Origin: Rhizobium sp. PDO1-076
Lineage (GTDB): Bacteria > Pseudomonadota > Alphaproteobacteria > Rhizobiales > Rhizobiaceae
Direction: 5' to 3'
NCBI RefSeq assembly: GCF_000247475.1
Contig: NZ_AHZC01000033.1
Location: 1-64,000 of the forward strand
DNA length: 64,000 nucleotides
In this document: piece by piece, positions 7,692-45,153 of the stretch
How positions within the stretch are numbered: position 1 is the first letter of the stretch
Layout: every line of letters begins with the position of its first letter
Notes under the pieces: model-generated
The model's database searches: none
The model's input: only the letters and a program-made list of their open reading frames with translations
Told to the model about the DNA's origin: nothing
Made by a program: the position numbers and the translations under genes

Positions 7692-8525
7692 ATGGCACCC
7701 TATGGCGCAATTTCCGCCGACAAGCTCTTTCGCTTGCTCGGTTCATCCCAGTCTCCTCTGATTGTCGACGTCCGCATTGCCGACGATGTCGCGGCGCATC
7801 CCTTCCTCATTCCCGGCGCCTTCCGCCGTGATCACCGGCAGATCGGTGAATGGGCGGCGCAAGTCGCCTCCACTCCCACATCCGTTGTCGTCGTCTGTCA
7901 CCAGGGGCGCAAGCTGAGCGAAGGCGTCGCGGCCCATTTGCGCCTTCTCGGCATATCGGCCGAAGTTCTGGAAGGCGGCAATTCTGCCTGGGCCGCGGCT
8001 GGCCTGCCGCAGGTGCCAATCGACCGGCTCGGTGATGGCCAGGGCGCCGGCTCGTCACTCTGGGTCACGCGCAACCGGCCGAAGATCGACCGCATTGCCT
8101 GTCCCTGGCTTATCCGGCGTTTCATCGATCCCTTCGCCCGCTTCCTCTTCGTGGCCTCATCCGAGGTCGAAGGCGTTGCCGACAGGTTCAATGCCGTGCC
8201 CTTTGACATGGAAGGCGTCTTCTGGAGTCATCGCGGCGATCTCTGCACCTTCGACACCATGCTGTCGGAATTCCAGCTGGAAACGCCGGCATTGCTGACC
8301 CTGGCGGAGATCGTGCGCGGTGCCGATACCAACCGGCTCGATCTTGCGCCGCAGGTCGCCGGTCTGCTGGCGGTGTCGCTCGGCCTGTCGCGGCTCTATT
8401 CCTCGGATCTCCAGCAACTGGAGCAGGGCTTGCTTCTCTATGACGCCTATTACAGATGGGCGCGCGATGCGATGGATGAAAAACACGATTGGGTGACGCG
8501 CGGTGGGCGCGATGGAGTGAAATGA
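7692..8525 (+). CDS. chrB: rhodanese-ChrB fusion, chromate resistance protein
   Basis: A 277-residue two-domain protein. Residues about 5-110 are a rhodanese domain with a candidate active-site cysteine C69 in VVVVCHQGRKLS. Residues about 125-265 match the C-terminal ChrB domain, with WVTRNRPKIDRIACPWLIRRF. ChrB proteins are known as chromate-responsive regulators or accessory proteins of the ChrA exporter. Here the usual ChrB N-terminal domain is replaced by rhodanese, which may bring sulfur or thiol redox chemistry (inference). ATG 7692 follows GGAG. The stop overlaps the chrA start as ATGA. A TTGACA -35-like hexamer lies at 7581-7586, without a clear -10. Confidence 0.85.
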   Translation: MAPYGAISADKLFRLLGSSQSPLIVDVRIADDVAAHPFLIPGAFRRDHRQIGEWAAQVASTPTSVVVVCHQGRKLSEGVAAHLRLLGISAEVLEGGNSAWAAAGLPQVPIDRLGDGQGAGSSLWVTRNRPKIDRIACPWLIRRFIDPFARFLFVASSEVEGVADRFNAVPFDMEGVFWSHRGDLCTFDTMLSEFQLETPALLTLAEIVRGADTNRLDLAPQVAGLLAVSLGLSRLYSSDLQQLEQGLLLYDAYYRWARDAMDEKHDWVTRGGRDGVK

Positions 8526-42394: not shown

Positions 42395-42778
42395 TGAAAT
42401 CACTCTACTCTCCTGCATTGGCCGCCGCGACCTTTGCCGCTGCACCCCTTTGTTTGACAGGGGTTTACGGTAAAATAAAGAGGTTGCTGGACGCGGAGTG
42501 GTTTACAAGTCTATTGTGTGACAACTTGGGGAACGGATTCGTTGGTGCTGGATATCAGACCCGACATGAGGTCGCGTTCTCGATAAATCCCGCGATCGCG
42601 TACCAGACAAAAAACCTGAAAAGATGGTTTCGTGTGGCGTTGTTTGGGATTCGGAGTTGATGACATTTTGCCGCGCCAATGGTTGTAAGACAGACTGGCA
42701 CTGCCATGGATTGGGAATACCGCCTTGGAAAATGTGGATCGTCATGATGGCCGAACATATCGTGCAGAAAATGATGCC
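42395..42778. other. divergent intergenic region between the SMP-30 and LuxR-type genes
   Basis: About 380 bp. A TTGACA hexamer lies near 42456 on the plus strand, with AT-rich sequence after it but no good -10 at normal spacing. A 16-codon ORF (42732-42782) overlaps the LuxR-type start as ATGA, but it lacks a good ribosome site and is not called as a gene. Confidence 0.4.
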
Positions 42779-43516
42779 ATGACCACGAACGATACCCCCG
42801 ACTCCAGTCGTATCGAGGCGCTGGTGATCGAGGTGAAAAGCTTCAAGACACAGTTCGACGTGTTTCGCTTCATGAAGCGGGCAACCGAGCAATACGGTTC
42901 GCGTGCGTTCATGGTGCTGAACATGCCAGGTGCGACTTCGCTGGATCTGTCCAGCAGTTCGATCATCACCAACTGGCCCTCCGACCTGCTGTCCGAATTC
43001 GATCAGGGGGCTCTTCTGTCCGGAAGCCCGGTCTTGGCCGTCCTGCGCCGTGCCTCCATCCCCTTTACCTACGATATCGATGAGGTCGCAGCACTGCGCG
43101 ATCCGCGCAGTGCCGAGCTTTCAAAGACGCTGTTTCATCGCTTTCGCATGAACCGCGGCGCCTATTTCCCGGTGCATGATGCGACCGGCGCGCGCGGAGC
43201 CGTATCGTTCAGCGGCGAGCGCAAGCCGTTCACAGTGCGTGAGATGATGGAACTGAGCTATCTGTCTGCCCACGTTTTCAACCGGTTGGCGGAAATCCGG
43301 GACATGGACAGCCGCAACAGCGACATGCTGACCGAGCGCGAACTGGATTGCCTCAACTGGACGGCAGCCGGCAAGACCAGCGTCGAGATCGCCGAAATCC
43401 TGACATTGTCCGAGCACACCATCAATCACTACCTGAACCGCGCCACCAAGAAGCTCGACGCCGTCAACCGCACGCAGGCGGTCGCCAAGGCGCTTCGTCT
43501 CGGCTTGATCAAGTAA
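42779..43516 (+). CDS. LuxR-family regulator, orphan (solo) with autoinducer-binding-like domain
   Basis: 245 residues. The N-terminal part (about 10-165) aligns with the acyl-homoserine-lactone binding domain, and the C-terminal part (about 180-243) is a GerE helix-turn-helix (LTERELDCLNWTAAGKTSVEIAEIL). In the ligand region NWPSDLLSEFDQGALLSGSP, residues that in TraR/LuxR contact the lactone appear replaced: the Asp of the usual DP pair is Ser, and the Trp and Tyr positions are Leu and Phe. No luxI-type synthase is nearby. It may sense another ligand. The start is uncertain; ATG 42779 gives a typical length. Confidence 0.87.
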   Translation: MTTNDTPDSSRIEALVIEVKSFKTQFDVFRFMKRATEQYGSRAFMVLNMPGATSLDLSSSSIITNWPSDLLSEFDQGALLSGSPVLAVLRRASIPFTYDIDEVAALRDPRSAELSKTLFHRFRMNRGAYFPVHDATGARGAVSFSGERKPFTVREMMELSYLSAHVFNRLAEIRDMDSRNSDMLTERELDCLNWTAAGKTSVEIAEILTLSEHTINHYLNRATKKLDAVNRTQAVAKALRLGLIK

Positions 43517-43568
43517 GTCCTATCTCTGGTGCTTTTTTGTGCGGCAAGCAGCGCGGCCGCCTAGATTG

Positions 43569-43646: not shown

Positions 43647-43662
43647 TGGCACGCTTCCTGCT
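43647..43662 (+). promoter_or_regulatory. sigma-54 (RpoN) promoter
   Basis: TGGCACGCTTCCTGCT matches the -24/-12 consensus TGGCACG-N4-TTGCW with one mismatch. The invariant GG (43648-43649) and GC (43660-43661) have the exact 12-bp phasing required. The expected transcription start is near 43673. No gene of normal size starts directly behind it; a probable small RNA does. Confidence 0.75.
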
Positions 43663-43672
43663 TCCTGAATGT

Positions 43673-43770
43673 CAGTCCAGAGGGGACGCTGCATGGCACC
43701 CAGCCAAGGGTGCTGCAAGGACAAGCCGCCGCGGTGAACATCGGTTCCTGCTGGCGGCTTTCCTGTTTTA
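43673..43770 (+). ncRNA. candidate sigma-54-dependent small RNA
   Basis: From the predicted start near 43673, about 97 bases run to a terminator-like hairpin: AAGCCGCC (43723-43730) pairs with GGCGGCTT (43753-43760). An inner GAAC/GTTC stem extends it, and TCCTGTTTT follows. A second hairpin GCACCC/GGGTGC lies at 43696-43713. The RNA also contains a 14-codon ORF with a good ribosome site, so it could be a small mRNA, a dual-function RNA or a leader. mrp downstream appears to have its own promoter at 43894. Confidence 0.5.
43693..43737 (+). CDS. 14-residue ORF with tandem cysteines
   Basis: The ORF encodes MAPSQGCCKDKPPR. ATG 43693 has GAGGGG seven bases upstream, a strong ribosome site. The last codons form the left arm of the terminator-like hairpin, and the two adjacent Cys codons (43711-43716) complete the right arm of the preceding hairpin. 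Translation would therefore alter the fold of the RNA, as in attenuators. Either a true micropeptide or a cysteine-sensing leader; no homologue is known to me. Confidence 0.4.
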   Translation: MAPSQGCCKDKPPR

Positions 43771-43893
43771 ACAGCCGGCGTATTTCTCCAGTCGGCCTGT
43801 ATTTCGGGACCTGCCGAGTTTTTCGCGCAAGCCTGGCTTCACCCGCTTTATCCACTCCTGTCGCCGTGGGGCGTTTTGTCTCCGCATTTGCGG

Positions 43894-43922
43894 TTGGCGA
43901 AGCCGCTCGCCTCCATTATCTA
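43894..43922 (+). promoter_or_regulatory. sigma-70-type promoter candidate of mrp
   Basis: TTGGCG (43894-43899), a 17-bp spacer, then TATCTA (43917-43922), about 65 bp before the mrp start. Confidence 0.5.
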
Positions 43923-43986: not shown

Positions 43987-45153
43987 ATGACCGAGTTGAC
44001 CCGCGAGCAGGTTCTGGACGCACTTGGACGCGTCCGCGGTCCCGATCTCGATCGCAGCATCGTCGAGTTGAAGATGGTTTCGGATGTCTTCATTTCCGAT
44101 GGCAAGGTCTATTTTTCGATCACCGTGCCGGCCGAACAGGCCGAGGCGCTGGAACCCTTGCGCCAGGCGGCAGAACGCACGGTCAAGGCCATTCCGGGCG
44201 TCAAGTCGGTTTTGGCCAGCCTGACGGCAGAGCGCAAGCAGGGTTCGGCGCCATCATCCCGTCCGCAGCCGGCGGCGGCCCCAACCCAGGGCCAGGGCCA
44301 CAGTCATGGTCACGGCCATAGCCACGCTCAGCTGCAGCAGCCGCGTACCAAGGCCGGCGTGCCGGGCATCGATGCGATCATCGCCGTTGCCTCCGGCAAG
44401 GGCGGCGTCGGCAAGTCGACCACAGCGGTCAATCTGGCACTGGGTCTCAAGGCCAACGGATTGCGCGTCGGCATTCTCGACGCCGACGTCTATGGCCCGT
44501 CCATGCCGCGTCTGCTCGGCATTACGGGTCGTCCACAGCAGATCGAAAACCGCATCATCGTGCCCATGGAGAATTACGGTATCAAGGTCATGTCGATGGG
44601 TTTCCTCGTTGACGAAGGCACGGCGATGATCTGGCGTGGGCCGATGGTGCAATCGGCGCTGATGCAGATGTTGCGGGAAGTCGCCTGGGGTGACCTTGAT
44701 GTTCTGGTCGTCGACATGCCGCCGGGCACGGGCGATGCGCAGTTGACCATGGCCCAGCAGGTCCCGCTGTCCGGTGCCGTCATCGTTTCGACACCGCAGG
44801 ACCTTGCCCTGATCGATGCCCGCAAGGGGCTGAACATGTTCAACAAGGTCGAGGTTCCCGTACTCGGCATCGTCGAGAACATGAGCTATTTCATCGCGCC
44901 CGATACCGGCAATCGCTACGATATCTTCGGTCATGGCGGCGCCCGTGCCGAGGCCGAGAAGATCGGCGTGCCCTTCCTGGGCGAAGTGCCGCTGACGATC
45001 TCGATCCGCGAGACCTCGGATGCCGGAACACCGGTGGTCGTTTCCGATCCGGACGGGCCACAGGCTGCCGTCTATCGCCAGATCGCCGAAAAGGTTTGGA
45101 GCGAGGTCAAGGCCCATTCGGGTCGGACGGCGCCGGCCATCGTCTTCGAATAA
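43987..45153 (+). CDS. mrp: Mrp/ApbC-family P-loop ATPase, cysteine-free, His-rich linker
   Basis: 388 residues. An N-terminal MIP18/DUF59 domain (about 1-82) is joined by a linker (about 83-125) to an ATPase domain. The linker contains a histidine cluster GHSHGHGHSHAQ at about 104-115. The P-loop is VASGKGGVGKSTT (about 134-146), followed by DADVYGPSMPRLLG and DMPPGTGDAQL. In characterised Mrp/ApbC/NBP35 proteins a CxxC after ENMSYF binds an Fe-S cluster. Here that place reads ENMSYFIAPDTG, and the whole protein contains no cysteine. It is still probably an Fe-S or metal carrier by family, but cluster binding must differ or be absent. GGAAAGAGG precedes the ATG. Confidence 0.93.
   Translation: MTELTREQVLDALGRVRGPDLDRSIVELKMVSDVFISDGKVYFSITVPAEQAEALEPLRQAAERTVKAIPGVKSVLASLTAERKQGSAPSSRPQPAAAPTQGQGHSHGHGHSHAQLQQPRTKAGVPGIDAIIAVASGKGGVGKSTTAVNLALGLKANGLRVGILDADVYGPSMPRLLGITGRPQQIENRIIVPMENYGIKVMSMGFLVDEGTAMIWRGPMVQSALMQMLREVAWGDLDVLVVDMPPGTGDAQLTMAQQVPLSGAVIVSTPQDLALIDARKGLNMFNKVEVPVLGIVENMSYFIAPDTGNRYDIFGHGGARAEAEKIGVPFLGEVPLTISIRETSDAGTPVVVSDPDGPQAAVYRQIAEKVWSEVKAHSGRTAPAIVFE

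Follow-up and report, generated by a model that had tools for sequence, protein, structure and literature searches.

The locus described here lies in a 64,000-nucleotide stretch of Rhizobium sp. PDO1-076 DNA (the window), between a gene for a LuxR-type regulator and mrp. Its features, including those that relate it to nitrate-assimilation (nas) leaders, are as follows.

42776..43516, +, upstream neighbour, a LuxR-type regulator (Autoind_bind and GerE)
43530..43546, +, dyad with NtrC spacing, TGC-N11-GCA, 117 bp upstream of the -24 element
43647..43661, +, sigma-54 -24/-12 promoter TGGCACGCTTCCTGC, read from the sequence; 111 of 394 family genomes keep it together with hairpin H1
43673..43769, +, predicted small RNA of about 97 nt, with a start deduced from the -12 spacing and a U-rich end near 43769
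43675..43687, +, H1, the 5' hairpin GTCC-AGAGG-GGAC, with the conserved AGAGGGG segment
43693..43737, +, 14-codon ORF, judged a chance frame; its start is not conserved
43696..43713, +, H2, hairpin GCACCC-AGCCAA-GGGTGC, where nas leaders have the ANTAR hexaloop; its own loop has A at position 1 but C at position 4
43723..43769, +, H3, an intrinsic-terminator-like hairpin (43723-43760) with a U-rich tail
43894..43922, +, sigma-70-like promoter TTGGCG-N17-TATCTA, 65 bp before mrp
43987..45153, +, downstream neighbour mrp (NUBPL/ApbC-type P-loop NTPase)

Sigma-54 promoters follow the consensus TGGCACG-N4-TTGC. The element in the window reads TGGCACG-CTTC-CTGC, a single departure, and its GG (43648-49) and GC (43660-61) stand at the exact -24/-12 spacing and are conserved in the family, as expected of the promoter with exact phasing and one mismatch that the initial annotation had read there. 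The predicted transcript folds strongly: positions 43673-43780 (108 nt) reach -51.8 kcal/mol (z = -3.38), a value equalled by 1 of 200 shuffled sequences. The T tract that follows H3 is interrupted (TTTCCTGTTTT). When the organism's own genome was searched with a covariance model, the RNA was found at 43672-43766 (57.8 bits, E 1.4e-9) and the next match had an E value of 0.76. Rfam yielded no match in the window at gathering score, and among 20 loci searched up to E 1 it gave four matches, none on the RNA; no Rfam membership was thus found for the window or these loci. Comparative analysis confirmed positions 43647-43769 as encoding a conserved, predicted small RNA with a putative sigma-54 promoter, and the proposed transcript of about 97 bases ending in a terminator-like hairpin holds. 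Separately, an Rfam terC RNA (RF03067) was noted near two Agrobacterium-type copies (L005 39-100 and L010 2921-2982).

The transcript had also been credited with an ORF with a strong ribosome site, and hence with a possible role as a micropeptide gene or cysteine attenuator. The window does contain the ORF (43693-43737; M-A-P-S-Q-G-C-C-K-D-K-P-P-R) and, at a suitable distance before its ATG, the sequence GAGGGG; this much of the claim stands, but the frame is not conserved. None of the 13 close relatives compared has an ATG at this place, where the window reads GCTGCATGGC and close relatives read GCTGCAAGCT, GTTGCACGAC or GCTGCAACGC. More broadly, 62 of 79 non-redundant copies have no ATG, GTG or TTG 3-14 nt past the SD-like GAGGGG, and in those that do have a start codon its position and the frame length vary. 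Because the ORF is not conserved, the micropeptide and cysteine-attenuator readings fail, and we ruled them out; despite the well-spaced GAGGGG in the window, we give a next to negligible chance to the idea that the transcript is a short messenger for a 14-residue cysteine-containing peptide or acts as a cysteine attenuator.

Conservation of the RNA was assessed with a pattern of promoter and H1 that leaves the first loop unconstrained (TCCNNNNNGGA). Across 394 family genomes this pattern matched in 119, spread over 35 of 109 genera, and its reversed form matched in one genome. The H1 loop is AGAGG in 102 of the 119 pattern-positive genomes and GGAGG in nine, 111 in all; the other eight carry unrelated loops only, and the 111 were used for the ANTAR comparison below. 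At least 111 of the 394 genomes thus carry the RNA, a lower bound, since the pattern misses a clade with a 7-nt H1 loop. The pattern behind most of the named loci fixes TCCAGAGGGG, and we therefore argue loop conservation from the free-loop scan. The scan of named genomes with TCCAGAGGGG fixed returned at least 119 stretches, from Rhizobium, Agrobacterium, Sinorhizobium/Ensifer, Neorhizobium, Shinella, Hoeflea, Nitratireductor, Ciceribacter and other genera, with legume symbionts among the records carrying the RNA. By blastn, 23 of 199 family genomes (own genome included) gave a match; those in L019, L022 and L023 fall on other parts of the query and were excluded as copies. The set of loci comprises 195 sites; these reduce to 176 distinct sequences, of which six are truncated. 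One locus, L038, is titled Arenimonas sp. MAG and shows a rhizobial-looking luxR-RNA-mrp arrangement with an mrp 82% identical; it is probably a mislabelled or contaminated bin.

For structure comparison, 125 of 137 cores were kept and reduced to 79 non-redundant sequences, of which seven were dropped and 72 aligned. In this alignment, from which the structure itself was derived, three helices are supported: 90.6% of cells pair (81.2% after shuffling and 39-50% when the structure is slid), double changes affect 143 cells where shuffled alignments give 41, and both partners vary at 14 of the 17 pairs. In H3, each of the ten modelled pairs is altered on both sides in some sequences. The initial annotation had suggested looking across the Rhizobiaceae for conservation and covariation of its two hairpins, and the search came out in its favour, with covarying helices and widespread retention of promoter plus H1. 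Using the covariance model, we detected the RNA in 32 of the 33 genomes of genus g46, which we guess to be Sinorhizobium. In one Sinorhizobium-type clade the H1 loop has 7 nt instead of 5, while the 5' segment AGAGGGG, and likewise AGAGGGGAC, is retained. In L003, L017, L033 and L054 the RNA stretch is longer, with an apparent additional hairpin between H1 and H2.

The RNA keeps company with mrp. This gene lies downstream in 137 of 195 loci, usually with a luxR-type gene preceding, and the mrp match begins 203-542 bp downstream of the -24 element. Such an association may reflect a cis role, for instance an attenuator in which the sigma-54 transcript reads through H3 and raises Fe-S carrier supply under nitrogen stress. 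Besides the frequency of the arrangement, the interrupted T tract in the window and an attenuator as presumed ancestor (see below) speak for this. Against it, a relaxed form of the sigma-70-like motif before mrp (TTGGCG/TAYNT) occurs in 103 of 137 mrp-linked loci, a raw count with no chance control, and the ANTAR loop is not conserved. Furthermore, in 33 of 176 distinct copies 900 nt or more of downstream sequence is available and shows neither mrp nor a nas context, and 11 nas leaders come on top of these, so the RNA is not simply an mrp leader. We consider attenuation of mrp unlikely, and the earlier proposals that mrp has its own sigma-70-type promoter 65 bp upstream and that the RNA is a separate unit agree with the motif counts and with the copies that lack mrp. 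Sinorhizobium-type loci have tandem luxR-type genes upstream of the RNA, which are perhaps SMc00877 and SMc00878. The latter is said, in the available text of PMC5977203, to affect denitrification, a possible nitrate link of the RNA neighbourhood.

The initial annotation took the RNA to be new, which it probably is not. SmelC165 of S. meliloti is given at 910182-910297 on the + strand with an RpoN motif (PMC7143759, accessible portion), and the text available from PMC3927594 describes its Rhizobiaceae-wide conservation, complete microsynteny and atypical terminator. The RNA described here resembles it in strand, predicted RpoN promoter, family-wide occurrence and conserved gene neighbourhood, and in size: the reported SmelC165 measures 116 nt, and our model R1 matches 111-125 nt in the genus taken for Sinorhizobium. 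Their positions also agree. From the RNA to the 4.5S RNA gene we measured 630,272, 650,849, 654,738, 673,357 and 679,460 bp in the five usable genomes of 11 (in five others the interval crosses a contig end, and in one the two lie on different contigs), and the corresponding distance for SmelC165 as reported, 650,255 bp, is within 5% of these and on the same strand. Two differences stand out: the text at hand describes SmelC165 as absent from A. tumefaciens and A. radiobacter, yet Agrobacterium records have copies of the RNA at other loci, and the portion of its published description available to us makes no link to nas leaders. Matched by position, strand, size and promoter rather than letter by letter, the stand-alone RNA probably belongs to the SmelC165 family.

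Two other rhizobial sRNAs were compared on the basis of partial accounts. EcpR1 (SmelC291) shares a predicted sigma-54 motif but sits next to pleD/divK and rpmG, and was set aside for that reason. MmgR (alpha-r8) is likewise a rhizobial sRNA, with transcription reported to be induced by NtrC, but it is placed at S. meliloti position 3046712 with RpoD/RpoN motifs and has an anti-SD loop, whereas the RNA here has an SD-like one. Neither Rfam nor the available text of the open-licence PMC literature, searched for this RNA and not for leader exaptation as such, describes a function or a nas origin for it; the portions covered were those of PMC4414408, PMC3616915, PMC7143759, PMC3927594, PMC5977203, PMC6759348, PMC5424462, PMC3795266, PMC3369931, PMC5821096 and PMC10746234.

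Upstream of the promoter, the sequence points to nitrogen control. TGC-N11-GCA has the spacing of NtrC sites and belongs to their consensus. It occurs in 28 of 78 upstream regions, the window included, compared with 2-13 of 78 for eight other spacings. A consensus related to the NtrC dyad is also found in the literature available to us. The strict form TGCACC-N5-GGTGCA, with up to two mismatches, appeared in 2.6% of upstream regions and 1.0% of shuffles; this enrichment is not clear, so we dropped the strict consensus and claim only the shorter dyad. From the dyad we infer that NtrC binds and activates here and that the RNA is induced under nitrogen limitation. The nitrogen link raised by the initial annotation gains from this dyad and from a kinship with nitrate-assimilation leaders.

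That kinship emerged from an order-wide search with model R1, which matched in 25 of 297 genomes. R1 was trained on 72 sequences that include the nas leaders L025, L046 and L063, so its order-wide matches are not fully independent; the 12-nt H3 loop discussed below is independent. The search added 22 loci (L180-L201), of which L182 is mrp-linked and the 21 others all lie in a nas context. On re-testing by tblastn, 19 of these 21 have a NasS-like gene upstream and 20 a NarK-, NrtA- or NirB-like gene downstream, labels that we assigned from similarity among the loci and from general family features; 18 carry a sigma-54 motif. Within the core set, 17 of 195 loci have NasS upstream. With mrp downstream, five of these show the order nasS-RNA-mrp (one in the window's genus); the stretch of L037 ends before mrp, matches L074 and is counted as stand-alone; the 11 left bear the window's H1 with NasS upstream and no mrp, and narK is seen downstream in seven. 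L237, from the window's genus, reads luxR-nasS-RNA-mrp, its RNA without the A1-G4 loop described below.

The second tie is the terminator loop. In 1.34 Mb of locus sequence the 12-nt H3 loop CCGGATGTACGG has 62 occurrences, every one within the RNA family: 49 belong to listed copies, six to nas leaders from genus g74 (Mesorhizobium, at a guess) and seven to further Sinorhizobium-type copies, with some sites shared by two loci. Stand-alone copies such as L011, L117 and L006 have it in common with g74 nas leaders (L180, L186). In the available text of PMC3927594 a GGAUGUA loop is reported also for SmelB053 and for the 3' UTRs of cold-shock genes, so the terminator-loop motif may be a reusable module. 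Both forms can coexist: G128 (L178, L200) and G029 (L182, L201) each have a nas leader and an mrp-linked copy, and the window's own genome has a nasT-nasS-leader-nrt-nir locus with a sigma-54 leader on contig C431 (L236, minus strand, about 7900-8250). The stand-alone RNA thus resembles NasT-controlled nas leaders in sigma-54 motif, two hairpins, terminator and place after nasS, with the same H1 in some genera and the same 12-nt H3 loop in others; it differs in that none of the stand-alone copies has the operon and few have the A1-G4 hexaloop. What is new here is that leaders between nasS and nitrate-assimilation genes are, as judged from motif, structure and context, RNAs related to the stand-alone copies.

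A further distinction between the two forms is the loss of the hexaloop. ANTAR targets, according to the accessible part of PMC3369931, consist of two hairpins with hexanucleotide loops carrying A at position 1 and G at position 4. In the window the H1 loop has 5 nt (AGAGG) and that of H2 has C at position 4 (AGCCAA); nor does the RNA precede nitrate or other nitrogen genes, its neighbours being luxR and mrp and the genome's own nas leader lying on another contig. An A1-G4 hexaloop is present in H2 of all 11 leaders with the window's H1 and as a hairpin in 20 of the 21 non-mrp order-wide nas loci, the exception being L185, whose one match falls in the terminator arm. Scored with a permissive test (a best-hairpin picker gave noisy loops in stand-alone copies), the H2 region has such a loop in just 14 of 165 distinct stand-alone copies, which against 11 of 11 gives a Fisher p value of 5e-11. 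In stand-alone copies A1-G4 is not commoner than several other base combinations at the same positions; seven of the 14 positives have AACGAC and might be real alternative hairpins. Within G029 the nas leader L201 has the hexaloop AACGGC and the mrp-linked L182 has none. In the own-genome nas leader AACGGC sits in the first hairpin, the second having a 5-nt loop; H2 is thus not the only place where the canonical loop can occur. The window's H1 does retain A1 and G4, within its 5-nt loop.

The RNA was accordingly rejected as a working NasT target, since the defining loop is missing in the window and found in 14 of 165 stand-alone copies, yet a link to NasT may remain. A strong ANTAR protein is encoded in 95 of 111 RNA-bearing genomes and in 118 of 283 others, and this, with the kinship to nas leaders, could be explained if the RNA still bound the ANTAR protein NasT and titrated it, as EutX/Rli55 does for EutV. 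EutX/Rli55, as described in the accessible sources, resembles the RNA in being an independent transcript akin to ANTAR target hairpins, but its ANTAR site still works and is attached to a cobalamin riboswitch, whereas the RNA here is without a canonical site. The rarity of the hexaloop, the length of the H1 loop (5 nt, 7 nt in some) and the 16 RNA-bearing genomes with no ANTAR match at E 0.001 (nine) or only a weaker one (seven) all count against titration of NasT, and the last makes a function beyond NasT likely. We regard a NasT sponge as improbable, slightly more so than attenuation of mrp.

Instead, we think it reasonably probable that a NasT-type attenuator leader was exapted into a sigma-54-driven sRNA that probably acts in trans through its 5' AGAGGGG. 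The ancestor would have been the leader of a NasT-controlled nas operon, with promoter, two hairpins and terminator; we infer this direction of descent, from nas leader to stand-alone RNA, because the nas form is more widely spread. In the Rhizobiaceae the RNA would then have parted from the operon, to lie now mostly between luxR-type genes and mrp, and the ANTAR hexaloop of H2 would have been lost, so that NasT would not be expected to recognise the stand-alone RNA as a normal target any longer. Sigma-54 polymerase, in all likelihood together with NtrC, would transcribe its roughly 97 nt, and so under nitrogen limitation. The AGAGGGG segment may have become the working part; selection seems to have preserved H1, and that the segment survives the enlargement of the loop from 5 to 7 nt suggests a pairing segment more than a loop shape read by protein. 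From this conservation we hypothesize pairing in trans with other RNAs, for which AGAGGGGA is a candidate seed for targets.

One conceivable set of partners is the sRNAs with CCUCCUCCC anti-SD loops (NfeR1, AbcR and MmgR types), which the SD-like GAGGGG might pair with and so relieve their targets. The duplex predicted between AGAGGGGAC and CCUCCUCCC has 6 bp and -9.8 kcal/mol, a value given without a shuffled control. In the accessible literature NfeR1 acts as a repressor of ntrBC and is itself under repression by NtrC, a circuit into which an NtrC-driven antagonist would fit. Loop position 1, however, is A in 102 of 111 genomes and the better-pairing G in only nine, and part of the segment is inside the H1 stem; we hold a sponge of this kind to be quite improbable. 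The same low standing applies to the fuller version, in which an ANTAR leader freed of its protein loop is now a nitrogen-stress sRNA that sponges NfeR1, AbcR and MmgR, adding an antagonist layer to the NtrC network.

The exaptation that we favour bears on a wider matter, as the origin of new bacterial sRNAs has so far been mostly guesswork. Here, a single family keeps the presumed ancestor (the NasT leader), a contextual intermediate (nasS-RNA-mrp) and the stand-alone product, and the loss of a protein-recognition loop can be measured along that series. For an uncharacterised RpoN-linked sRNA carried by at least 111 of the 394 sampled family genomes, this would provide a candidate identity, a promoter logic and a putative working part.
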